DNA from: a virus
IMG/VR virus record: IMGVR_UViG_3300042731_004843
Span: 44,146 to 108,145 of that record
Direction: 5' to 3' (one strand)
DNA length: 64,000 nucleotides
This document shows positions 9,999 through 63,166 of the stretch, piece by piece. The first letter of the stretch is position 1; each line of letters begins with the position of its first letter. Under the pieces are notes generated by a model that made no database searches, was not told where the DNA came from, and saw nothing but the letters and a program-made list of their open reading frames with translations. Both the position numbers and the translations under genes were made by a program.

Positions 9999-10076
9999 GT
10001 TATCTCCTGGGGTTAGTTGGGGTCCAAGACGAAGATCTTATAACAGCGTGTAGGCGTTTTTTGTCCTGCCCACTTG

Positions 10077-13363: not shown

Positions 13364-15385
13364 TTGTCCGGCGCTAGTACGCAATCTGCGTCCAGGTTCT
13401 CCAGTCGTGGTCGTTCTGGTGGAGCGCAGGACTACGGACTCCAGTACCCCAGCCCCTTCTTCGACATCGGGCAGACCTATCTCCCGGCCACCGTCAAGCA
13501 GATGTTCAGGTGGTGTAGGTACTATTACTTGGTCAACCCGCTGATCAACGCGGTGGTGTCCAAGATGGCGGAGTACCCCATCACCGACGTGCTGTTTGAC
13601 ACAGAGCGGACAGAGCTGAAGGACAGGTGGACAGGCTTCCTGCTGGACCATCTGCGGTACCGGGCGTTCCAGGTAGAGGTGGGGCTGGACTACTACACCT
13701 ACGGTAACGCGCTTGTCTCGATCTTCTATCCGTTCTTGAAGTTGTTGGAGTGCCGCTCATGCGGCAACAAGCAGTGGGCTAAGGACGCAGAGTACAGGTT
13801 CCAGAACTATCAGTTCTACATGGTGTGCCCCAAGTGTGGGAACCATGGTCCGGCTCGAGCTTACGACCGGTACATCAAGGCGTCTAAGGGCATCAGGCTG
13901 CTTAGATGGAACCCGGAAGACGTAGACATACGCTACAACGACATCACGGGGGAGTACGAGTACTACTACTCTATCCCGACCCAGCTCCGCAACGACATCA
14001 TCATCGGCAAGAAGTCCACGGTAGAGACCGTTCCCCAGCTCTTCATAGACGCTCTGCGCCTGAAGAAGTCTGTGGTCTTCTCCCGCGACAACATCTACCA
14101 CTTCAAGCGTCCAACTTTGGCGGGCAAGGACAGGGGGTGGGGTACCCCCATGATCCTCCCGGTTCTGAAGGACACGTACTACCTTCAGATCATGCGGAAG
14201 GCCCAGGAAGCCATCGCCCTCGAGCACATAGTGCCTCTGAGGGTGATCTTCCCACAAGCCGGTTCAGCTACATCTGATCCTTTCACGTCCGTGAATCTGC
14301 AGGACTGGAGAGATCAGGTAGCCGGTGAGATCAGACGCTGGAGAGCGGACAACAACTACATCCCAATTATGCCCCTGCCTCTAGGTCACCAGACCATCGG
14401 CGGCGACGGGCGTGCGCTCCTGCTGTCGCAAGAGATACGGGTCTGGTCCGAGCAGATCGTGGCCGGTATGGGCATCCCTGTCGAGCTAGTGTTCGGAGGG
14501 TTGAGCTACTCTGGTAGCAACGTCTCCCTGCGCATGCTCGAGAACACCTTCCTGGGCTATCTCCAGGATCACCATTCGATGCTTAAGTGGATCATCAAGA
14601 GCACATCTGCGTATCTTGGTTGGTCCCCCGTCCGGTCCAGGTTCAAGCCGTTCAAGATGGCCGACGACCTGCAAAGAAAGGCGTATCTCTTCCAGCTCAA
14701 TCAGGCCGGCAAGCTGTCGGACGAGTCCCTTTTGGCGGACGCTGACTACGATTCCGCCAAGGAGGACTTGATCATGGAGCGCGAGAGCACCCGTAGGGCG
14801 AGTGCTCATAAGAAGCGTGTCCTACAGGACGCGGACATGCAGGGCGAGGCACAGATGGTCCAGATGAAGTGGCAGTCCAAGATGCAGGCGCAGCAGATGA
14901 AGACGGAAGCTGCTATGCAGAATGAGATAGCCAAGGACCAGGCAGCCTTCCAGGGTGAGCAGCAGAAAGACCTGATGGGCGCGCAGATGGCCATGCAGCA
15001 GGGAGGGCAGCCAGCGGAAACGGCACCAGAGATGCGGCCATCGCCAAGACGCCCAGAACTGATAGAGCCGCCGGAGCAGATCAAGTCGCCACTAACTGCT
15101 AGGTCTATGCAACCGATTCCTGCTGGGGCGACAGGAGAGTCCTTGCAGGGCAAGTCCAACATAGACCTCCTGCTTTTGGGTCGTAGGCTGGCGGACCAGC
15201 TGAACACACTGCAGCCAGTACAGAAGCAGCAAGCACTGTCCGAGCTCAGAGTCATGCAACCAGAGCTGCATGATGTCGTTTTGGGGCTAATGGTATCAGG
15301 GGGAGCTAGAGCCTCTGCCGCAGCGGCCCGACCTCTGCCTGAACAGAAGCCGGCCCGCCGCGGACCAGAAGCGCAACTAGTCTAG
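13364..15385 (+). CDS. Portal protein
   Basis: TTG at 13364 follows the upstream stop by two bases, with GGGAGG five bases upstream. The 673-residue product fits a myovirus portal: an N-terminal clamp region, QEAIALEHIVPLRVIFPQ in the core, the typical GGDGRALLLSQEIRVWSEQIV helix, and NVSLRMLENTFLGYLQ. It carries an inserted zinc ribbon (CRSCGNK near 128, CPKCGNHG near 154). The C-terminal 170 residues are Gln-rich coiled coil (MQGEAQMVQMKWQSKMQAQQ) and Pro-rich tail. A 27-nt DNA segment at 14870-14896 is identical to one in the gene at 53713-56511. Confidence 0.85.
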   Translation: MSGASTQSASRFSSRGRSGGAQDYGLQYPSPFFDIGQTYLPATVKQMFRWCRYYYLVNPLINAVVSKMAEYPITDVLFDTERTELKDRWTGFLLDHLRYRAFQVEVGLDYYTYGNALVSIFYPFLKLLECRSCGNKQWAKDAEYRFQNYQFYMVCPKCGNHGPARAYDRYIKASKGIRLLRWNPEDVDIRYNDITGEYEYYYSIPTQLRNDIIIGKKSTVETVPQLFIDALRLKKSVVFSRDNIYHFKRPTLAGKDRGWGTPMILPVLKDTYYLQIMRKAQEAIALEHIVPLRVIFPQAGSATSDPFTSVNLQDWRDQVAGEIRRWRADNNYIPIMPLPLGHQTIGGDGRALLLSQEIRVWSEQIVAGMGIPVELVFGGLSYSGSNVSLRMLENTFLGYLQDHHSMLKWIIKSTSAYLGWSPVRSRFKPFKMADDLQRKAYLFQLNQAGKLSDESLLADADYDSAKEDLIMERESTRRASAHKKRVLQDADMQGEAQMVQMKWQSKMQAQQMKTEAAMQNEIAKDQAAFQGEQQKDLMGAQMAMQQGGQPAETAPEMRPSPRRPELIEPPEQIKSPLTARSMQPIPAGATGESLQGKSNIDLLLLGRRLADQLNTLQPVQKQQALSELRVMQPELHDVVLGLMVSGGARASAAAARPLPEQKPARRGPEAQLV

Positions 15386-16557: not shown

Positions 16558-16696
16558 AGACTTCCTCCTGTTTGGGGCTGGAACAGCCTCTGCTTTTACT
16601 CTTCACCCTCCTTATACCCATCTGCCGCAGTATATTTCGTTGCCAGTTCTCCAGTTGATCTGGTAGGTTGTACGAACACATATACGGAGCGGCCTC

Positions 16697-19600
16697 ATGG
16701 CGCGTCTTTCCCCGGAAGAGAGCTTCGAAATTCTCAAGGACCGGGTCGCAGAGACAGTCGGCGGGCTCTTCCCGATCGTAGGGAAGAAGCACACACTGGA
16801 ACTGGGACAGGTCGACGTCAACGACAGGCTTCATATAGACGACATCCGTTCACAGAAGGAGGCCAAGCTGGGTAGCCGGACTTGGGCCGTCCCTGTGGAA
16901 GCTAAGGTCGTCTTACGAGACAACGACACAGGCAAGAGGGTGGATGAGCAAAAACTCCGCCTCATGAGCTTGCCCAAGCACACCAGGCGCTACTCCCACA
17001 TCGTCGATGGCCAGGAGTACCAGATCGACAACCAGTGGCGGCTGAAGTCCGGGGTCTACGCTCGAGTGAAGGACAATGGGGAGCTGAAGTCAGAGTTCAA
17101 CCTGGCCAAGGGCAGGGGCTTCAGCTTGGGGTTCGACCCCAAGAACCGCCAGTTCCACATGTCGTACGGCACCTCCAACATACCGCTGGCCCCGCTGCTG
17201 CAAGAGATGGGTGTGCCACAAGCCAAGATACAGGAGCAATGGGGCTCTGCTATTGCCCAAGAGAACGATAAAGACGTAGAGCAGGCAGTACTGAAGTTCT
17301 ACAAAGCCTCTACGGGTAAGAAGGCGGACGACTACGAGCAGGCGCGGCAGTACATGAAGGACACGCTGACCGCGACAGAGCTGCGCCCAGACACTACGAA
17401 GGTCACGCTGGGCAAAGGGTACAAGTCGGTGACTGGGGACGCTTTGATGGATGCGTCTACCAAGCTGCTGCGCATATCCCAGGGTAAAGCAGAGCCAGAT
17501 CCCAGAGACTCCTTGATGTTCAAGGACCTGCACAGCACGGAGGACTTTTTCGCTGAGCGGATCCAAAAGAGTGGTCGGGACATCACCCGGCGCATACAAA
17601 ACACTCTAGATCGGAAGAAGCGTGTCAGCGACATCGTCGGCCCGGACGTCTTCAATCGCCCCATCAGGACTATGTACCGCACTTCCCTGGCGAATGTCCC
17701 AGATCAAACCAACCCCTTGGAGATGATGTCTGGGCAGATGAAGACCACCATCACAGGCGAGGGAGGCATCAAGAGTTCGCACGCCATCACTGAGGACGCC
17801 AAGCTAGTCGACCCATCACACCTCGGGTATTTGGATCCGATACACACGCCGGAGGGGGCGTCCACAGGCGTGTCCCTGCGCATGCCTATCGGCGTGAAGA
17901 AGAAGGGCCACGATGTCGCCGTCAAGATGTTCAACGTCAAGACAGGCAGACTGGAGGACGTCAATCCAGAGAAGGCCATGAACTCCACTGTCGTCCTGCC
18001 TGACCAAGTTAGGTGGCAGGACGGCAAGCCTACGCCGGCCGGCAAAACGATCAAGATGAGTGGGCCAGGTAATGAGATCGTCGAAGGGCCCATGAAGCAG
18101 GCGGACTACATCATGCGGGACCCCATACAGATGTTCTCCATGGCATCTAATCTGGTCCCTTTCGTGGCAGCAGACCACCCGAACCGCAGCACCATGGCGG
18201 GGAGGCACATGGAGCAGGCAATACCGCTACAACGGCGCAAGGCCCCCTTGGTGCAGAGTGTAGCGGGCACCAAGACTTTTGAGCGGGTGATGGGTGATTA
18301 CGCCGGCCACACCACGCGCTTTGCTGGGGAGGTCGTGGGAATCAAGAAAGACGCCGTCGTCATCAAAGGAGACGATGGCAAGAATCATGAGGTTCAGCTA
18401 TACGATCACTTCCCACTCAACGACGATAAAGGCTTCCTCCACTCGACTCCTACGGTGAAGGTTGGGGACAAGGTTAAAAAGGGCCAGCCGATAGCGGACA
18501 CCAACTTCACAGATGGTGGGGCCCTAGCTCTAGGCACCAACCTCAAAGTCGGATACATGCCCTACAAAGGGTACAACTTTGAGGACGGCATCGTGATCAG
18601 TGAAGGTGCCGCAAAGGAGTTGTCCAGCGAGCACCTTTACCGCAAGACCCTACAACGAGACCGGCAGCACGTGCTGGACAAGAAGAAGTACCAGGCGTAC
18701 GCGCCAGATGCCGTAACTCGAGAGCAATCAGACAAGCTCGATGATGAAGGGGTCATCAAGCCAGGGCAGGTAGTGTCTCCGGGTGATACCCTGATCGCCG
18801 CACTACGCGAGAAGAAGGACACCAAGGAAGATCGCGAGCTCGCACGTATCCACAAGTCTCTAGTCCGGCCGTACACTGATGCCAGCGTGAAGTGGGAGGC
18901 TGACCACCCGGGGGTGGTGCAGGAGGTGGTAAAGAAGGGCAAGAAGTTGGCTGTCCACGTCAAGACTTTGGAGGCCGCTGAAATCGGGGACAAGATCGCC
19001 GGCCGTCACGGCAACAAAGGCATCATCACGAGCATTTTGCCGGATGACGAGATGCCACAGACCAAAGACGGCAAACCACTACAGATTCTGATGAACCCCA
19101 CTGGCGTGCCCGGCCGTACTAACCTCGGCCAAGTGCTGGAGACGGCTGTCGGCAAGATAGCTGAGAAGACTGGTAAGCCGTACACGGTCAAGAACTTCCA
19201 GCCTAATGAAGATCTACACGCCAAAGTTACCGCAGATCTGAAGGCGCACGGGCTACCTACTGACGGAAAAGAAGAAGTCGTGGACCCAAAGACCGGTAGG
19301 GTTTTGGGCAGGATCCTGACGGGGCCACAACATGTGGTCAAGTTGAAGCACCAAGTAGAGAAAAAGATGATCGCCAGGGCTGGTGGACCTGGCTATGCGT
19401 ATGACAGGAACCTGGTACCCAAGGGAGGGGGCCCGCACGGGGCGCAGGCTTTGGGCACTCTCGGCCTCTACTCCATGCTGGCGCATGGCGCTAAGGCCAA
19501 CTTGAGGGAGATGCAGACTCTCAAGAGTGACGCAGGCCAGAGTGATGAATTTTGGGCCGCCCTACAGGCTGGGGAAGCGCTGCCGGCGCCACGTCCCACG

Positions 19601-22600
19601 TTCGCGTACAAGAAATTCACCAGCTATCTCAACGCGCTAGGGGTCAACGTTAAGAAGGACGGCAACAATCTCTCACTCATCCCGTTCACCGATAAGCAGG
19701 TGGAGGAGATGAGTAATGGGCAGATCAAAGACGCAGCCAGGATGGTGCGGGCCAAGGACCTACGCCCAGAGACTGGAGGGCTGTTCGATCCCAAGACCAC
19801 TGGCGGTGTTGACGGTACGAAGTGGAGCCACATTCGTCTGGCCGAGGCTATGCCCAACCCCTTGTTCGAGCGGGCGATACAGAGCCTCACCGGACTAGAT
19901 CAGAAGAAGTACACGGATCTGGTTACTGGTAGGGCGGCTTTGGATAAGAGCGGCAACCTGACCTCCAACTTGGACGCCGGCGTAACCGGTGGTGCTGCAA
20001 TAGATAGTCTGCTCAAGAAGGTCGACACCAAGACGGCACTGGAACAGGCGCAGAAGGAGCTGGACAACCCCAACCTGAAGGGCAACCGCCTCGACCAAGC
20101 CAACAAGAAGGTCAAGTTCCTGCGGGCGCTAGATTCCGCAGGACTGAATGCCCGGGACGCGTACATGATGCAGAACGTACCGGTCCTGCCGCCGTCCATG
20201 CGCCCCATCTCCCAGCTACCTAATGGCGATCTCAATTTTGACGACGTCAATGGCCTCTACAAGGGGCTGCACCTAACGTCGTCCCAATTAAAGAAGCAGC
20301 AGTCTAGTAAGTTGCTGCCGCCAGAAGAGATGCAAGAGACCAGGGAGGAACTCTATGATGGGCTACGTGCATTAACTGGTTTGGGCGGCAATCCAAGGCA
20401 GGAGTTCCGCGGCATCCTGGACGTGATCGGAGGCAAAAGACTGGAGACGTCTGGTGGCCGGGCAACTGGTAGAAAGGTGGGCTCACCAAAGGAGGGCTTC
20501 TTTCAGAAGAAGTTGGTGCAGAGAAAGCAGGACCTCTCTATGCGGTCCACCATCATCCCCGAGCCGGCACTAGCTTTGGACGAGGTGGGGCTGCCCAGAC
20601 GTGCGGCGCTTGAGCTCTACAAGCCATTTGTGGTTAGGGAGCTGCGCAACATAACTGGCGCTTCCCCATTGGAAGCGCAGAAGAAGATCGGAGAGGGCGG
20701 ACAGTTGGTAAACAGGGCGCTTGAGCGTGTGGTAGAAAGCCGCCCCGTCTTGTTGAAGAGAGACCCGGCACTGCACAAGTACAGTGTGCAGGCCTTCAAG
20801 CCGCGCATTGTGGGCGGCAAGGCTGTCCAGATCCACCCGCTGGTGACCTCCGGCTACAACGCAGACTTTGACGGGGACACGATGGCCGCCTTCGTGCCCG
20901 TGAGTAATGAGGCCGTTGAGGAAGCCAAGAAGATGTACCCCTCGAGGAACCTTTTCAGCCCCTCGACTGGCAGCTTGATGTACTCCCCTACGCTGGAGAC
21001 CCAGCTTGGTCTGTACGGCATCACGCAGCAAACCGGAAAGAAGACAGGCAAGCAGTTCAAGGACATCAAAGAGGTCCACTCCGCTTTGAACAAGGGCCAG
21101 GTAGGCCTCAATGATACTGTCCGAGTGGGTGGCCTGACGTCCACGACGGGTAAGTTTCTGGTGGGGGAGGCGCTACCAGAAGATATGCGCAAGGATTTCC
21201 TCAAGAGGAAAGACCCCCTGGACAAGGCCGGGCAAAAAGAGCTGCTTACAACACTGGCCAAGCAGCACCGCAATGACTACGGGGAGGTGGTCAACAAGCT
21301 AAAGGACCTGGGCAATCGCTGGTCGACGGATACCGCGTTCTCTATTGGTCTGGACGACATCAAGCCGGAGACACGGACGAGAGATAAGATCTTGAAGGCC
21401 GCGGAGAAGCGAGTGGCTGCGGCAGGCGGCAAACCAGAAGCGGCCATACGGGAATTCGACAAAGCCACGCAGGAGATGGCCAAAGAGTTCGCCAAGATGC
21501 CAGAGGGCCGTAGCGCGCTGCTCACTATGAACCGTTCCGGTATCAAGCCCTACAACGACACTCTTCGGCAGATCAAGATGGCCCCCATGCTGATCGCTAA
21601 CGCCAAAGGAGAGGTCATCCCCACTCCGGTACGCAAGTCCTACGCAGAGGGCCTGGATTTGGCAGACTACTGGACCTCGATGAGTGGGGCACGCAAGGGC
21701 ATCATCCAGAAGGTACAACAGGTCCAAGAGCCTGGGTACTTGTCCAAGCAGGTTATGAATTCTGTGATGAACAACACGATCGCGGACAATGACTGCGGTA
21801 CGGACAAGGGTATTGCGCTGCCGACAGACGAGAAGGATATCCTAGACAGGTACACGGCTGCGCCAGTACGGGCTGGAAAGAAGACCATACCCGCAGGTAC
21901 GTTGGTCACTCCAGAAGTACGGAACACGTTGCGTAACAACAGGGTAGGGCGGGTGGTGGTGCGCTCTCCTTTGCGCTGCCAGCACGGCCCAGGTCTCTGT
22001 AAGAAGTGTTACGGCCTTACTGAAGACGGAAGAGAGCCGGAAGTAGGCTTGAATGTGGGCGTGTTGGCCGGACAGGCACTAGGTGAGCGCGCCACCCAGC
22101 TGGCTATGAAATCCTTCCACACGGGGGGCACTGTAGCGACCAAGGAGGGCCTGGTAGATGAGTTTCAGCGGGTAAAGAACTTGCTGCTCTTCCCCAAGAC
22201 TCTGCCGGGATCTGCTACTCTGTCTACCGTGAACGGCAAGGTAGACAAGATAGAGAAGGACCCTGCCGGTGGACACAACGTGTTCATCTCTGGGGAGAGG
22301 CACTACGTTCCCCAGAAGCGGGGCGTGCCCATGATGGGCGGAAAGACATTGCGCAGAGGGGCCCAGGTTAAGAAGGGTGCCGCGATCTCCGGGGGGGTGG
22401 TGAACCCGCACGATATGCTGCCGCTGACTGGTGTGGAGCCCGTACAGGGCTACCTATCCAATGAGCTGCACAACATCTACGGGCCTCATGGTATCCGCCG
22501 CAGGAATACCGAAGTGGTGGTCAAGTCGCTAACGAATCTCACCAAGGTGGATGATCCCGGAGACCACCGTGAGTTCATCCGTGGCGACTTTGCGCCACAA

Positions 22601-22855
22601 ACACTGGTCGCGAATATGAACAGGCGAGACAAAGGCAAACGGCCTGTACGCCACACACCAATCCTCAAGGGCGTGGACATGCTACCGCTGGACATGCAAG
22701 AGGATTGGATTGCTAGAATGAATCACCAACGACTGTCTCAGACAGTCGTGGCGGCAGCGCAGCAGGGGTGGACCAGCAAGCTGCATGGTAAGCACCCTAT
22801 TCCTCCGGTTGTTTATGGTGCAGAGCTGGGCAAAGCAAAACCTGGAGAATACTAA
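16697..22855 (+). CDS. Fused beta-beta' multisubunit-type RNA polymerase, single chain
   Basis: A 2052-residue protein containing both catalytic subunits of a bacterial-type RNA polymerase. Beta part: LDPIHTPEGASTG near 380, GYNFEDGIVIS near 625, DKIAGRHGNKGI near 765 (the two active-site lysines), NPTGVPGRTNLGQVLE near 800 and ANLREMQTLKSD near 935. Beta' part: NADFDGD at 1388-1394 with the three Mg-binding Asp (1390, 1392, 1394), a bridge-helix-like SGARKGIIQKV near 1665, a Cys site CQHGPGLCKKC near 1761, a trigger loop TQLAMKSFHTGG near 1800 and the C-terminal EVVVKSLTNLT. It is much shorter than E. coli beta plus beta' (about 2750), and the beta' N-terminal zinc finger is absent. It lies among virion genes; no alpha, omega or sigma is visible in the window. 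Confidence 0.95.
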   Translation: MARLSPEESFEILKDRVAETVGGLFPIVGKKHTLELGQVDVNDRLHIDDIRSQKEAKLGSRTWAVPVEAKVVLRDNDTGKRVDEQKLRLMSLPKHTRRYSHIVDGQEYQIDNQWRLKSGVYARVKDNGELKSEFNLAKGRGFSLGFDPKNRQFHMSYGTSNIPLAPLLQEMGVPQAKIQEQWGSAIAQENDKDVEQAVLKFYKASTGKKADDYEQARQYMKDTLTATELRPDTTKVTLGKGYKSVTGDALMDASTKLLRISQGKAEPDPRDSLMFKDLHSTEDFFAERIQKSGRDITRRIQNTLDRKKRVSDIVGPDVFNRPIRTMYRTSLANVPDQTNPLEMMSGQMKTTITGEGGIKSSHAITEDAKLVDPSHLGYLDPIHTPEGASTGVSLRMPIGVKKKGHDVAVKMFNVKTGRLEDVNPEKAMNSTVVLPDQVRWQDGKPTPAGKTIKMSGPGNEIVEGPMKQADYIMRDPIQMFSMASNLVPFVAADHPNRSTMAGRHMEQAIPLQRRKAPLVQSVAGTKTFERVMGDYAGHTTRFAGEVVGIKKDAVVIKGDDGKNHEVQLYDHFPLNDDKGFLHSTPTVKVGDKVKKGQPIADTNFTDGGALALGTNLKVGYMPYKGYNFEDGIVISEGAAKELSSEHLYRKTLQRDRQHVLDKKKYQAYAPDAVTREQSDKLDDEGVIKPGQVVSPGDTLIAALREKKDTKEDRELARIHKSLVRPYTDASVKWEADHPGVVQEVVKKGKKLAVHVKTLEAAEIGDKIAGRHGNKGIITSILPDDEMPQTKDGKPLQILMNPTGVPGRTNLGQVLETAVGKIAEKTGKPYTVKNFQPNEDLHAKVTADLKAHGLPTDGKEEVVDPKTGRVLGRILTGPQHVVKLKHQVEKKMIARAGGPGYAYDRNLVPKGGGPHGAQALGTLGLYSMLAHGAKANLREMQTLKSDAGQSDEFWAALQAGEALPAPRPTFAYKKFTSYLNALGVNVKKDGNNLSLIPFTDKQVEEMSNGQIKDAARMVRAKDLRPETGGLFDPKTTGGVDGTKWSHIRLAEAMPNPLFERAIQSLTGLDQKKYTDLVTGRAALDKSGNLTSNLDAGVTGGAAIDSLLKKVDTKTALEQAQKELDNPNLKGNRLDQANKKVKFLRALDSAGLNARDAYMMQNVPVLPPSMRPISQLPNGDLNFDDVNGLYKGLHLTSSQLKKQQSSKLLPPEEMQETREELYDGLRALTGLGGNPRQEFRGILDVIGGKRLETSGGRATGRKVGSPKEGFFQKKLVQRKQDLSMRSTIIPEPALALDEVGLPRRAALELYKPFVVRELRNITGASPLEAQKKIGEGGQLVNRALERVVESRPVLLKRDPALHKYSVQAFKPRIVGGKAVQIHPLVTSGYNADFDGDTMAAFVPVSNEAVEEAKKMYPSRNLFSPSTGSLMYSPTLETQLGLYGITQQTGKKTGKQFKDIKEVHSALNKGQVGLNDTVRVGGLTSTTGKFLVGEALPEDMRKDFLKRKDPLDKAGQKELLTTLAKQHRNDYGEVVNKLKDLGNRWSTDTAFSIGLDDIKPETRTRDKILKAAEKRVAAAGGKPEAAIREFDKATQEMAKEFAKMPEGRSALLTMNRSGIKPYNDTLRQIKMAPMLIANAKGEVIPTPVRKSYAEGLDLADYWTSMSGARKGIIQKVQQVQEPGYLSKQVMNSVMNNTIADNDCGTDKGIALPTDEKDILDRYTAAPVRAGKKTIPAGTLVTPEVRNTLRNNRVGRVVVRSPLRCQHGPGLCKKCYGLTEDGREPEVGLNVGVLAGQALGERATQLAMKSFHTGGTVATKEGLVDEFQRVKNLLLFPKTLPGSATLSTVNGKVDKIEKDPAGGHNVFISGERHYVPQKRGVPMMGGKTLRRGAQVKKGAAISGGVVNPHDMLPLTGVEPVQGYLSNELHNIYGPHGIRRRNTEVVVKSLTNLTKVDDPGDHREFIRGDFAPQTLVANMNRRDKGKRPVRHTPILKGVDMLPLDMQEDWIARMNHQRLSQTVVAAAQQGWTSKLHGKHPIPPVVYGAELGKAKPGEY

Positions 22856-28097: not shown

Positions 28098-29927
28098 ATG
28101 TCCATAGTATCGCTAGACGAAGTGAAGTTGATCAGGTCCGCTAAGACCATGCCACTTCTCTACTCGGCGGACGGCGGAATCAAAGAGCCGTGGTTCGACT
28201 ACGATGAGGAGGGCATACCCACTGATTTTGGTCTGGATCTCGAGCCCCCTGACGTATCCCCGGAAGAGTTGGCGGAAATCGATCCCGACACGTTTATCTA
28301 CGACGTGTCGCCCTCCCAGTTCGCGGAGACGGCCATCAGAGTGCCCGAGGCTGGCCGGGTCACGGACTTCAAGTTCGAGGGGCGCGAATACCTGCGCAGG
28401 GTCTACGACTCTGACTCTAGGAAGATACTACTGAAGTGTGGGCGTCAGGTTGAGAAGAGCACGACCCTAGGTAACAGGCTGCTCTGCTACTCATCCCTGA
28501 CCAATAACTTCCGCTGTCTGTTCGTGGCTCCCTCGGCTGAGCAGGCCAAGGTTTTCTCCAACGACCGCATCAAGGACGTCATCGATGCGTCGCCGCTACT
28601 CAAGGCGTACACTTCCAGTAAGATCAACCAGGCCGTCTTCTTCAAGAAGTTCATCAACTTCTCCCAGATCCGGCTGCGCTATGCGTACCTTACGGCTGAC
28701 CGTGTCCGTGGTATCCCCGCCGACCTGGTTACCATTGACGAGATCCAGGACATCCTGATCGACAACATCCCGGTCATTGAGCAGTGTGCCTTCCACTCTC
28801 CCTACAAGTTGTTCCTCTACTCAGGCACTCCGAAGTCGATGGACAACACGATCGAGTTCTACTGGAACGAGTTCTCCACGCAGAACGAATGGGTAGTACC
28901 CTGTGAGCGGCACGGCACGCCCAACGACTCCAGCTCCTGGCATTGGAATGTTCTTACCGAGCGCAACATAGGTAAGAAGGGCCTAGTGTGCGACCGGTGC
29001 AAAGAGCCGATCAACGCACAGCACCCCATGGCGCGTTGGGCTGCCCTCAATCCGGTACACGAAGAGAACAAGTCCAAAGTCACTTTTGAGGGGTACCGCG
29101 TCCCGCAGATCATGGTGCCGTGGGTGGACTGGCCGGAGGTACTCCAGGCGCAAGAGCAATACCCCAGAGCCCAGTTCATGAACGAGAAGCTGGGCATGTC
29201 CTACGACTCTGGGGTGCGCCCCATCACTAGGGCACAACTTAAAGCCTGCTGCCAGCCCAGCATCCGGATGGGAGATATCGAGCACTTCAAGCAGATCGCA
29301 CAAGGTACACGGATATGGGCCGGGATCGACTGGGGGCCGGGGGAGAACGCCTCGTTTACGTGCATAGCATTCGGCGGGTACATGGGTACCGGCGTGTTCA
29401 ACATCTTCTGGGTCCATCGCTTCACTGGACCGGACCTCGAGCCTGAGAGACAGCTAGACCTGATCTCTCAGATGCTTTCCCAACTGAATGTTCAGTTGGC
29501 CGGCGTGGACTATGGCGGGGGCTTCTACCAGAATGATGCGCTGATCCGTCGCTTTGGACCGGCCAGGGTACAGAAGTTCCAGTACAACCCCCGACAAAAG
29601 AAGAAGGTCTACTGGGAGCAGAACCTGCTGCGGTGGATGTGCCACCGCTCCGAGGTGATGAGCGACGTCTTCAATGCCATGAAGCAGCAGAAGATAGCGC
29701 TACCTAACTGGGATGAGTTCTGTGACCCCTACGGCCAGGACATCCTGAACATCTTCAGTGAATTCAATGAGCGTCTGAGGATGATCGAATACAAGAAGGC
29801 CCCGGGCAAGACGGATGACGCCTTCCACTGCATCCTCTACTGCTTGCTGGCTTCTATGATCCAGAACCCGAGGCCGGACATCATCACGCCTATGAAGGAA
29901 GAGGGAATCCCGCAGCACCATGGCTAA
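28098..29927 (+). CDS. terL: Terminase large subunit
   Basis: A 609-residue DNA-packaging motor. The ATPase has Walker A CGRQVEKSTT near residues 113-122, Walker B VTIDEIQDI near 213 and the coupling segment LYSGTPKSMDN. A zinc ribbon (CDRCKE) lies between domains. The RNase H-like nuclease has IDWGPGE near 410, GVDYGGG near 470 and DDAFHC near the C-terminus as acidic ligands. It cuts and pumps phage DNA through the portal. No SD of note; the gap upstream carries two hairpins, and a bidirectional terminator follows. Confidence 0.93.
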   Translation: MSIVSLDEVKLIRSAKTMPLLYSADGGIKEPWFDYDEEGIPTDFGLDLEPPDVSPEELAEIDPDTFIYDVSPSQFAETAIRVPEAGRVTDFKFEGREYLRRVYDSDSRKILLKCGRQVEKSTTLGNRLLCYSSLTNNFRCLFVAPSAEQAKVFSNDRIKDVIDASPLLKAYTSSKINQAVFFKKFINFSQIRLRYAYLTADRVRGIPADLVTIDEIQDILIDNIPVIEQCAFHSPYKLFLYSGTPKSMDNTIEFYWNEFSTQNEWVVPCERHGTPNDSSSWHWNVLTERNIGKKGLVCDRCKEPINAQHPMARWAALNPVHEENKSKVTFEGYRVPQIMVPWVDWPEVLQAQEQYPRAQFMNEKLGMSYDSGVRPITRAQLKACCQPSIRMGDIEHFKQIAQGTRIWAGIDWGPGENASFTCIAFGGYMGTGVFNIFWVHRFTGPDLEPERQLDLISQMLSQLNVQLAGVDYGGGFYQNDALIRRFGPARVQKFQYNPRQKKKVYWEQNLLRWMCHRSEVMSDVFNAMKQQKIALPNWDEFCDPYGQDILNIFSEFNERLRMIEYKKAPGKTDDAFHCILYCLLASMIQNPRPDIITPMKEEGIPQHHG

Positions 29928-38231: not shown

Positions 38232-39353
38232 ATGAGCGTTCCCGCAAGAGTACTGAATGACCTCTTTTCCCAGAAGCTGGGCACCAGCGAGGGGAAGGAA
38301 AAGATCGCGGAATACGCAGGCACCTACATTCGTGACCGGCTGCGTGAAGTCAGCTTTGCGCGCAAGATTCTGCCCCCGCAGATGGTCACCCGTGCGGACT
38401 GCCAGCGTTCCGTCAACCACGACACCCTGGTGAAGATCATCGACGTCGAGCCCAAGAGCCGCGCGATGGCCATCACCTTCCGCGGTCAGCCGACCGCACG
38501 GTTCATCCGCGCTCCCAGGGCGGAGGTTCCGTTCTTCACCGTCTCGAGCGAGAAGTTCGAGAAGACCGAGCAGGAGCTCCTGGCCTACGAGATGCCGATC
38601 ACCAAGGTGATCGAGGACAACTCGGTCAAGGACATCCAGGAGATCGAGGACCGTGAGTTCACGATCCACATCGAGGCGGCTGTCCAGGCCCTCCAGGCGG
38701 AGGCCAATGGCGGCGTCACGACCACCCTGAATGCCACGTCGGTTCAGGCCGGTACCGTGGTGGAGTTCTCGGTGCGCAAGGGTGAGCTGGCCCGCAACGC
38801 CACCACCGATGACGGCACCGTCTATCCGGTACAGAGGCCGGACTTCGTCAACCTCTTCAAGCTGTTGGACGGCAACAGGCTGCGCGCGGAGATGGTTCTC
38901 ATCACCGAGGTGGACTGGGACGACATCCTACAGTGGACCGTTGAGGATTTCGGTGACCGCGTCCAGTCCGAGACGACGGTGGACGGCTACAAGTACAACC
39001 TGCTTTTGGGCCGGGCGTACTGCCGCACCATCAAGACGGACATCCTTCGTCCAGGCAACATCTACTGCTTCACCAAGCCGGACTTCTTTGGCCGGTTCTT
39101 CATCCTGAACAACACCAAGTTCTACATCGACAAGATCGCGAACCTGATCACGTGGCAGTCCTGGGAGGACATCGCCATGTCGGTCATCAACATCGCGTCG
39201 GTGCGGAAGGTGGAGCTGTACTCGGGTGACGCGACATCCAACGACGCCGATGGTATCCTCTCTTCGGTCATCCCCGTGGACGAGGAAGATCTAGGCGCTG
39301 AGAACAACCGAGTCGATTCCGGCCTGGTGTTCCCGGGTGTCGAGGTCTTCTAG
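38232..39353 (+). CDS. Major capsid protein
   Basis: A 373-residue product with SD AAGGAG, followed by a strong terminator. Codon choice is more uniform and C-ending than in neighbours, as expected for a highly expressed gene. FARKILPP near residue 45, the long helical spine-like segment VKDIQEIEDREFTIHIEAAV, and the C-terminal beta-rich region agree with an HK97-fold capsid subunit. Position after protease, scaffold and decoration candidates is the standard head gene order. It appears to lack a long N-terminal delta domain, consistent with separate scaffolds. Confidence 0.8.
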   Translation: MSVPARVLNDLFSQKLGTSEGKEKIAEYAGTYIRDRLREVSFARKILPPQMVTRADCQRSVNHDTLVKIIDVEPKSRAMAITFRGQPTARFIRAPRAEVPFFTVSSEKFEKTEQELLAYEMPITKVIEDNSVKDIQEIEDREFTIHIEAAVQALQAEANGGVTTTLNATSVQAGTVVEFSVRKGELARNATTDDGTVYPVQRPDFVNLFKLLDGNRLRAEMVLITEVDWDDILQWTVEDFGDRVQSETTVDGYKYNLLLGRAYCRTIKTDILRPGNIYCFTKPDFFGRFFILNNTKFYIDKIANLITWQSWEDIAMSVINIASVRKVELYSGDATSNDADGILSSVIPVDEEDLGAENNRVDSGLVFPGVEVF

Positions 39354-40937: not shown

Positions 40938-41006
40938 ACAATGGTAAGTACGATAATGGTTGCTATCCTTGCTGTGCAGTCGTACGCTACTTCTATGGAG
41001 GTAGCT

Positions 41007-41774
41007 ATGGCAAAAGTACGCTTGGATCATGGGCTGATCGTACGTCTTTACCAAGAGGGTAAGTCTGCTGCTGAAGTGGCAGTGGCGGCAGGTTGCTCGA
41101 AACCTGGGGTGCTTCATGTGTTACGTCTACACGAAGTGCCACTTCGTGTAGGGGCTAAAAGATCAGATACGGAGAGGCGTCTAGGGTTTCAGCCGACGAA
41201 GACGTGGGTACTCTCTCTGCTACAAGAAGCGGATAGCGCAAAGCAGGCAGCAGAAAAAGCCAACGTCCCGTACTCTACATTTATCGACTGGATGGACAAA
41301 TTGGACGTCTCTCGGGCCCCCTGGCGCGGTGGGCCCAGAAGCGGCAATGCGCGCAGACAAGAGATCCCCATCGAGGAGGCGATTGCACTTTCCAATGAAG
41401 GCACGCCGTATGCGGAGCTCGCTGCTCGCTACGGCGTTTCCTACGGAGTTGTCTGCCGCCGGATGAAGGATGCCGGCCACGTGTCACCCAAAAACAAGCA
41501 GACCAAGCACTCCCAGTTCCGCCACGTACAGGTGCAGAAGCGTCGGGTTCTGAACGAGTTAGGCATTACTACCTGTCAGATTTGTGGCGAGAGCAGGTCC
41601 CTGGACTATTCTCACATCGTGGCTGATAGGGACGGCGGGCCTATCGCCGCCGACAATTGTCTTGTTTTGTGTCCTTCGCACCATCGATTTTTCGATAGCG
41701 ATTCCCTGACGTCGGCCGAATGGCGTAAGATTTCTCGCAAGGTATTGGCGGCAAGGAAGAAGTACGCCGTTTAG
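41007..41774 (+). CDS. Free-standing HNH endonuclease with HTH modules
   Basis: ATG at 41007 with GGAGG five bases upstream; the frame to 40941 is unsupported. The 255-residue product has helix-turn-helix-like repeats (LYQEGKSAAEVAVAAGCSKP and LSNEGTPYAELAARYGVSYG) and a C-terminal HNH domain: CQIC near 190, DYSHIVADRDGG, NCLVLCPSHHRFFD. This layout is typical of phage homing endonucleases that spread by cutting relatives lacking the gene. Upstream DNA (40900-41000) is AT-rich, unlike its neighbours, consistent with acquisition. An unconvincing promoter-like GATAAT lies at 40959. Confidence 0.85.
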   Translation: MAKVRLDHGLIVRLYQEGKSAAEVAVAAGCSKPGVLHVLRLHEVPLRVGAKRSDTERRLGFQPTKTWVLSLLQEADSAKQAAEKANVPYSTFIDWMDKLDVSRAPWRGGPRSGNARRQEIPIEEAIALSNEGTPYAELAARYGVSYGVVCRRMKDAGHVSPKNKQTKHSQFRHVQVQKRRVLNELGITTCQICGESRSLDYSHIVADRDGGPIAADNCLVLCPSHHRFFDSDSLTSAEWRKISRKVLAARKKYAV

Positions 41775-61957: not shown

Positions 61958-63166
61958 TCAGGTGTAGAGGCCGTTGTGTAGTTCTCGCGCTAGTCTGTTG
62001 TAGCACTTCTGCTCCCGCCCACATCTATCTGGCTTAGAGTGCGCGCCGTCCTCTTGAAAGGCGTATAGGCTGGACTTGATAAGGGCTTCCGCCTTTCGCG
62101 GGTATGCGCCAAGTGTCCATTTTCCACCTTCCTTCACCACGTATAGGGCTAGAGTGGCTAGGCAGGGGAACACGAATCCGTCCGCCACATCTACTACGTT
62201 ACCGTCTCTATCTTTCTTGACGGGACGCCCCTTTCCCTTCAGCTTCTTTGGGCCCGTGTGTTTGCTGTCCGCGAATAGTTGGTGCCTCTTCCACTTACAG
62301 TAGGTGTCCCACGCCGTGGTGGCGATGTCGACGTAGTACCTGTACAGCGCTTTGGCCTCTTTGTGCTTCGGGTGCGACGGATCTTTCGTGACCATGTACA
62401 GTTCCGCGAAGTCCTTCAGAGAGCGCGTCTTTGTGCTGTAGATGGAGGCCTTCTTCATCACTCGAAGGCCCCCGTCATAGGACTTAAACTGTCGTTTCCA
62501 GAAGGAGCTCCACAGCTCGGCTGGGGTTAATAGGCCGATGACCCTGACTAGCTTTTCGGTGTCCACCATACCCTCTTCTAGCGGGTCGCTTTCTCTCAGC
62601 CTGATCTTCATCCCCTTCTTTCTGAACTCCCGCTGGAGGTCGTCCAGAACACCTTTTGCGTTAGCCACCGAAATCAACTGCACGGGGATCTGACGATTTA
62701 GATTGACTGTCATGTTGGCAGTCACCTCTTCGTCATCCAACAGGAAGAGCTGGAACGTGATATAGGCTTCTGGCGCCCCCTCCCCCCTACGAGCCAGGTC
62801 CAGGAGCGCATTTTCGATCGATCCTCTACTCTGCGCCCCGTCCATCACTGAGGGGCTGTCCAGCCGCAAGATCCCGCTGCCGCTGCTCCGCAGGCCACTA
62901 CCGGCTACTGCACAAATGGTGGCGCCGGAATTATACATGGAGAACAGATCTGGCTCATTGAGCAGCGTGCCCTCGATGGCTTTGTGGATCTTGTGCTTCT
63001 TTGCTGGATCCAGACCGGCGAGGTAGTCCCGGAGGTTCTCTTTGGTCGATAGGGGCACGATGTCTTGTACACGCGCCTTACCGCTAAAATGACGGTATCC
63101 ACGCCTCTTTTGGCAGGGGTCGGTGATCTCCTTAATGCAGAAGTACGGAACCGATACTATGGGCAT
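61958..63166 (-). CDS. AIPR/DGQHR-like protein
   Basis: A 402-residue product, SD AAGGAG six bases from ATG. YNSGATICAVAGSG (near 78-91) and SVMDGAQSRGSIENALL (near 107-122) match the two hallmarks of AIPR and DGQHR-type proteins (NNGIT..., then I-x-[ND]-G-x-Q-R/T). These families occur in abortive infection loci and with DNA modification (DndB/DpdB-like). Rest: FQLFLLDDEEVTANMTVNLN, helical C-terminus with a Cys pair. On a phage it could act against host defence or in modification; unproven. Confidence 0.65.
   Translation of the reverse strand: MPIVSVPYFCIKEITDPCQKRRGYRHFSGKARVQDIVPLSTKENLRDYLAGLDPAKKHKIHKAIEGTLLNEPDLFSMYNSGATICAVAGSGLRSSGSGILRLDSPSVMDGAQSRGSIENALLDLARRGEGAPEAYITFQLFLLDDEEVTANMTVNLNRQIPVQLISVANAKGVLDDLQREFRKKGMKIRLRESDPLEEGMVDTEKLVRVIGLLTPAELWSSFWKRQFKSYDGGLRVMKKASIYSTKTRSLKDFAELYMVTKDPSHPKHKEAKALYRYYVDIATTAWDTYCKWKRHQLFADSKHTGPKKLKGKGRPVKKDRDGNVVDVADGFVFPCLATLALYVVKEGGKWTLGAYPRKAEALIKSSLYAFQEDGAHSKPDRCGREQKCYNRLARELHNGLYT

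Follow-up and report, generated by a model that had tools for sequence, protein, structure and literature searches.

A phage RNA polymerase with beta and beta' in a single chain, probably alpha-free and carried in the virion with a phage sigma factor

The DNA analysed here (the window: 64,000 nucleotides, positions 44146-108145 of the 108145-bp IMG/VR record IMGVR_UViG_3300042731_004843) encodes a bacterial-type RNA polymerase (RNAP) whose beta and beta' subunits form one chain of 2052 amino acids. With a probability of roughly 0.7, we read this protein as an alpha-free, sigma-dependent core enzyme that is packaged in the virion and, together with a phage sigma factor, starts transcription without host core. 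This explanation is preferred because the chain is intact, its catalytic residues are invariant, the gene is conserved family-wide, sigma orthologues occur alongside it, alpha was not found in the records searched and the counterpart in the Salmonella phage Arash was detected in particles. The record itself is probably a fragment, since related contigs reach 160-200 kb. The gene comprises the following features.

16697-22855, + strand: RNA polymerase as a single chain of 2052 aa, beta joined to beta' (frame; Pfam, PDB and NCBIfam matches)
16697-19675, + strand: beta half, residues 1 to ~993 (as aligned to E. coli RpoB)
19001-19021, + strand: GRHGNKG, residues 769-775, beta barrel (K774 invariant in 68 sequences)
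19676-19735, + strand: beta-beta' junction, residues ~994-1013 (shared with phages Arash and D69)
19736-22852, + strand: beta' half, spanning residues ~1014-2052 and lacking the N-terminal zinc domain (as aligned to E. coli RpoC)
20081-20395, + strand: clamp coiled coil region, about residues 1129-1233, putative sigma-binding site (aligned with E. coli beta' 210-320)
20858-20878, + strand: catalytic NADFDGD motif, residues 1388-1394 (its three Asp invariant across 68 sequences)
22094-22129, + strand: trigger loop TQLAMKSFHTGG, residues 1800-1811 (H1808 invariant)

An earlier, sequence-only reading of this DNA had described one unbroken chain of 2052 codons, and the frame is indeed intact from its ATG. 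The motifs on which that reading relied are all in place: GYNFEDGIVIS, GRHGNKG and NPTGVPGR in the beta part, NADFDGD and the trigger loop in the beta' part. Matches to Pfam and to the NCBIfam rpoB and rpoC models confirm a true fusion in which all of both subunits is joined. Five Pfam domains score above curated cut-offs (Rpb2_6, 3e-65; Rpb1_2, 8e-28; Rpb1_5, 4e-21; Rpb2_3; Rpb1_3) and Rpb1_1 is matched partially, the Rpb2 domains preceding the Rpb1 domains along the chain. The NCBIfam rpoB, rpoC and fused beta/beta' models all match far below their curated cut-offs. The top PDB matches are bacterial beta' subunits (E 5e-107, residues 1065-2030), that of C. difficile being the best. Chance is excluded as the source of these matches. 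Structure prediction of the half-chains gave low-confidence models, which we count against the preferred explanation; Foldseek searches with them returned beta' and beta of bacteria, matched along the chain (E around 1e-46), and add little beyond the sequence because the TM scores are only 0.2-0.3. PHROG families 25354 and 24349 are long profiles of beta'/beta type.

Alignment with E. coli RpoB and RpoC places the start of beta' almost directly after the end of beta near residue 993. The N-terminal zinc domain of beta' is absent (C70, C72, C85 and C88 fall in an alignment gap), as are the large E. coli inserts, and these losses account for a length of 2052 rather than 2749 aa. The second zinc site (C1700, C1761, C1768, C1771), the clamp coiled coil and the flap are retained. 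Across 68 single chains the equivalents of beta D814, R678, K1065, K1073 and R1106 and of beta' R425, D460, D462, D464 and H936 are invariant, and the equivalent of beta E813 is E or D; we take the roles of these positions from general knowledge of E. coli RNAP. The protein hence has both barrels, the catalytic Asp triad, the basic residues and the trigger-loop His of a bacterial-like two-barrel enzyme. The E. coli beta' residues that contact sigma, when checked in the clamp coiled coil region, are not conserved.

Relatives were collected in two scans of IMG/VR and one of genome (MAG) contigs; the second IMG/VR scan retained the best 80 of 522 confirmed matches, so that the counts cover near relatives only. 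They include at least 78 non-redundant full-length chains, at least 67 of them plain (2015-2317 aa) and at least 11 with in-frame inteins. Among these near relatives the single beta-beta' chain is the rule in a large phage family. The inserts of the 11 chains (L011, L012, L018, L023, L024, L026, L031, L032, L107, L112, L126; the first two look like near-copies) have intein-like ends and interrupt active-site motifs, namely GRHGNKG, NADFDGD, the trigger loop and the zinc site, with up to four in the one 3591-aa chain of L026. LAGLIDADG domains and intein-splicing domains, the latter weaker in some, were found in most insert-bearing chains scanned, but not in L031. A more distant fused chain of 2317 aa lies on a MAG contig (L067) with a portal-like gene directly upstream. 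In L140 the RNAP frame is split at about 677/692.

The RNAP gene sits among structural genes, and a short conserved element precedes it:

13364-15385, + strand: portal protein gene, upstream of RNAP, start codon uncertain (Arash portal gp204, E 5.6e-87)
16611-16618, + strand: conserved CTTATACC element (CTTATAMC motif), 86 nt ahead of the start codon of RNAP
28098-29927, + strand: terminase large subunit (phrog_675, 2e-58; PF05876; Arash gp1)
38232-39353, + strand: major capsid protein (Arash gp226, E 1.4e-32; phrog_2522)

The portal-RNAP-terminase block is conserved, with portal upstream and terminase downstream in the majority of contigs long enough to include them. Terminase PF05876 was found in 15 of 16 relatives; a Pfam search with the capsid protein gave no match. 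Portal, terminase, capsid and other window proteins have homologues in Arash, and the part of the contig outside the window adds homologues of the Arash helicase detected in virions, of two more virion proteins and of its DNA polymerase. Some frames of the block are much longer than usual, perhaps through inteins (portal in L026, L029, L031, L106 and L112; terminase in L010, L014, L016 and others). Elsewhere in the window, an AIPR-domain protein (61958-63166, - strand) also matches an Abi-alpha-like abortive infection PHROG.

The closest link to a cultured system is with Arash (Gp206, Gp216 and sigma Gp10; PMC10585845) and the Vibrio phages D69, D148 and D181, which share the beta-beta' junction and the loss of the beta' zinc domain. 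Their portal gene likewise lies just upstream and the sigma gene is orthologous (checked in Arash and D69), and portal, terminase and capsid are homologous where compared with Arash. The Arash RNAP differs in being only about 33% identical to the window chain and in being split: in Arash and D69 the junction is kept, whereas beta' breaks off after residue ~1480, with a second gene encoding its C-terminal half. In D181 (L033) beta is split again at residue ~490-500, adjoining a homing endonuclease, and D148, judged by its match, looks split in the same way. AADYDGD replaces NADFDGD in Arash and D69 (L034, L035) and the trigger loop is altered, but neither the catalytic Asp triad nor the His is lost. 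Arash has myovirus morphology (PMC10585845), in line with the myovirus nature that the sequence-only reading had assigned to this phage. Two wastewater "phage" records, unverified (L060, L061; OR844998, OR846602), carry ordinary bacterial rpoB/rpoC and are probable contamination of the phage collection.

In the available part of the data on purified Arash particles, Gp206 tops the spectra (3516; 128 unique peptides; 100% coverage), and Gp216 (1210 spectra, 40 unique peptides) and sigma Gp10 (467 spectra, 24 unique peptides) are prominent (PMC10585845). Per residue this amounts to 2.3, 2.0 and 2.0 spectra, values only roughly compatible with equal amounts. The Arash paper names Gp206 "beta" (PMC10585845); our sequence comparison shows that it also contains the N-terminal half of beta'. 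By analogy, this strong detection points to a virion RNAP paired with its own sigma.

An orthologue of the Arash sigma is encoded on the contig at 3453-4217, outside the window; Sigma70_r3 exceeds its cut-off in this protein, and the region 4 and region 2 matches are weak. Small sigma orthologues occur in 14 of 16 large records, this contig included, and some records gave no sigma match. A dedicated sigma in the genome and the retention of clamp coiled coil and flap are features of a sigma-dependent RNAP, and sigma binding is predicted from them. A weak region-4 match at 40941-41774 of the window was discarded as a sigma, the sequence resembling an HNH endonuclease with helix-turn-helix regions. 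Alpha (PF01193) was sought in 14 records and in an overlapping set of 16 and found in none, 13 of 14 control genomes giving a match; the arrangement is thus not that of separate beta, beta' and alpha subunits. Arash (gp196, L064:40656-41693) and D69 (L040) carry a second, different sigma factor; beyond Arash, D69 is the one searched record with a convincing match. Gp196 is absent from the Arash particle table around its number, as far as that table is available (PMC10585845), which suggests a sigma switch during infection.

The conventional sigma70 promoters proposed in the sequence-only reading did not hold up, consensus sites being not enriched (3 found against 6.4 expected; 2 against 5.6). 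What is strongly enriched in intergenic DNA, near gene starts, is CTTATAMC, with 60 sites in 38 loci (control mean 34). Intergenic sites number 38 against a control mean of 2.1, and 27 lie upstream of a same-strand gene against 0.65. The window has sites at 10037, 16611, 28056 and 61552, one of them 42 nt ahead of the terminase gene. The motif lies almost always on one DNA strand per genome, even beside oppositely directed genes (25 of 26 sites in Arash, L062-L064). A promoter would be expected to change strand along with its gene. Interpreting the motif as a -35/-10 pair was given up, start codons or ribosome sites being sometimes too close and the strand behaviour unfit.

In bacteria, the alpha dimer brings beta and beta' together. 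The single chain would fold in cis as a two-barrel crab claw, so that the dimer would not be needed, and would locate phage promoters by means of the small phage sigma, bound at the clamp coiled coil and flap that the chain has kept. Packaged in the head, core and sigma would enter the cell together with the DNA; the injected enzyme would transcribe the first phage genes without host core, and newly made enzyme would serve later genes. The phage thus probably reads its own genes without host polymerase. What we infer here is that the enzyme is active, folds without alpha, pairs with sigma and is packaged in this phage, as well as which genes it reads; the same holds for the independence from host core, partial or complete, put forward in the sequence-only reading, a plausible proposal that the sigma orthologue strengthens. 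Its interpretation as a phage single-chain RNAP stands but was incomplete, since it included neither the large family, nor the split of beta' in some members, nor a virion RNAP with its own sigma.

Weighing against this explanation are the distance (~33% identity) and split of the Arash enzyme, possible carry-over into its particles, the unconserved sigma contacts, the weak match to sigma region 2 and the records in which sigma gave no match. The single chain and phage sigma might instead be made after infection and serve middle or late genes, host RNAP reading the early ones and the Arash signal being carry-over. Replication enzymes do appear in the available part of the Arash particle list, some with two unique peptides, and the authors name carry-over and leave it open (PMC10585845). 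Yet Gp206 has the top spectra there, Gp216 and Gp10 are strong, the second sigma is not listed, and the RNAP gene sits in the structural block; we regard a purely intracellular role as unlikely, if worth bearing in mind. Less probable still is a hybrid enzyme, only partly independent, that needs alpha or sigma from the host or recruits them. In its favour, assembly of bacterial RNAP ordinarily depends on alpha, no alpha gene turned up in the records searched, and the coiled coil and flap are kept; against this, fusion removes the need to join beta and beta', a dedicated sigma is co-conserved, and jumbo-phage RNAPs function without alpha (PMC7598289). That a former polymerase is retained only as a structural protein could be argued from its high abundance in Arash particles, but hardly survives the retention of every catalytic residue checked, the inteins in active-site motifs and the co-conserved sigma.

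The origin of the two halves was addressed with a concatenated tree and with separate beta and beta' trees, built by quick searches with long branches and rooted on bacteria (nine bacteria were included; archaea and the Helicobacter/Wolbachia sequences were left out). In the concatenated tree the single chains form one clade (99% SH-aLRT), Arash/D69 are its sister (100%) and L067 follows, all apart from the nine bacteria. The separate trees agree on the main groups and place both halves in the same phage clade; the halves therefore share their history. Judged from these sequences, the fusion is probably older than the Arash split. Clustering of the halves with one bacterial genus, raised in the sequence-only reading as a sign of recent host capture, was not seen: both branch with phages, far from bacteria. 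The junctions at 16.7 and 22.8 kb are supported without reads, because dozens of independent assemblies share this junction and this gene block. Helicobacter and Wolbachia do possess fused rpoBC (NCBIfam PRK09603, PRK14844), but recent capture of such a gene, or a chimeric contig, is ruled out by trees and synteny, and the fused rpoBC equivalog models match the window chain far below cut-off (557 of 5372 bits and 491 of 4632 bits).

Those cellular fusions have the same order and kind of joining but consist of full-length subunits (about 2840-2890 aa in the NCBIfam models). Multi-subunit RNAP-encoding Caudovirales (mReC), found in metagenomes including IMG/VR, likewise have beta and beta' in a phage clade apart from cells (PMC7481178), as here in trees with nine bacteria only. 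Compared by description, and as far as the available text of that paper goes, mReC differ in that no fusion, sigma pairing or packaging is reported for them, fusion being mentioned only for crAssphage (PMC7481178). Their capsid is PF07068 and their terminase PF03237 (PMC7481178), whereas here the capsid lacks a Pfam match and the terminase is PF05876. RNAPs of phiKZ/AR9-type jumbo phages are also phage-encoded, two-barrel and without alpha, with virion forms among them, but are more divergent, consist of four or five chains and rely on a promoter factor that does not resemble sigma (PMC7598289); in our gene beta and beta' share a single frame. Both barrels lie in one chain in crAss-like phi14:2 gp66, in P23-45 gp64/gp96, of which gp96 acts as a virion enzyme, and in YonO, the crAss-like and P23-45 chains being very divergent from cellular RNAP and in a separate clade (PMC10770324). 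We set all these apart, by the papers' descriptions, as having no Pfam-recognisable bacterial-type beta/beta' domain order. Earlier publications thus cover both the deep-branching beta/beta' of phages (mReC, PMC7481178) and the RNAP in Arash particles (PMC10585845). For the fusion, the sigma pairing and the family scale, no description was found in the literature searched, most subscription papers lying outside its reach. What stands out most clearly as new is that near relatives in a large family have the single chain as a rule, that it co-occurs with sigma and that it is linked to a particle-borne enzyme.

In its widest form, to which we give even odds, the proposal is that a globally spread, large phage clade packages a two-protein, alpha-free and putatively omega-free sigma-dependent RNAP (beta-beta' chain plus small sigma), the simplest bacterial-type holoenzyme known, which some lineages later re-split (Arash and the Vibrio phages) or loaded with inteins. 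Should the chain work with sigma alone, we would know of no smaller natural sigma-dependent RNAP of bacterial type. It would then allow a direct test of whether alpha serves only to join beta and beta', and two genes would suffice as a transcription system. Because homologues are numerous and some belong to cultured phages of Salmonella and Vibrio, the questions of alpha and of the virion can be tested now, and the deep-branching clade is available for studies of RNAP evolution. As a virion enzyme, the single chain would explain how transcription starts in these phages without host core.
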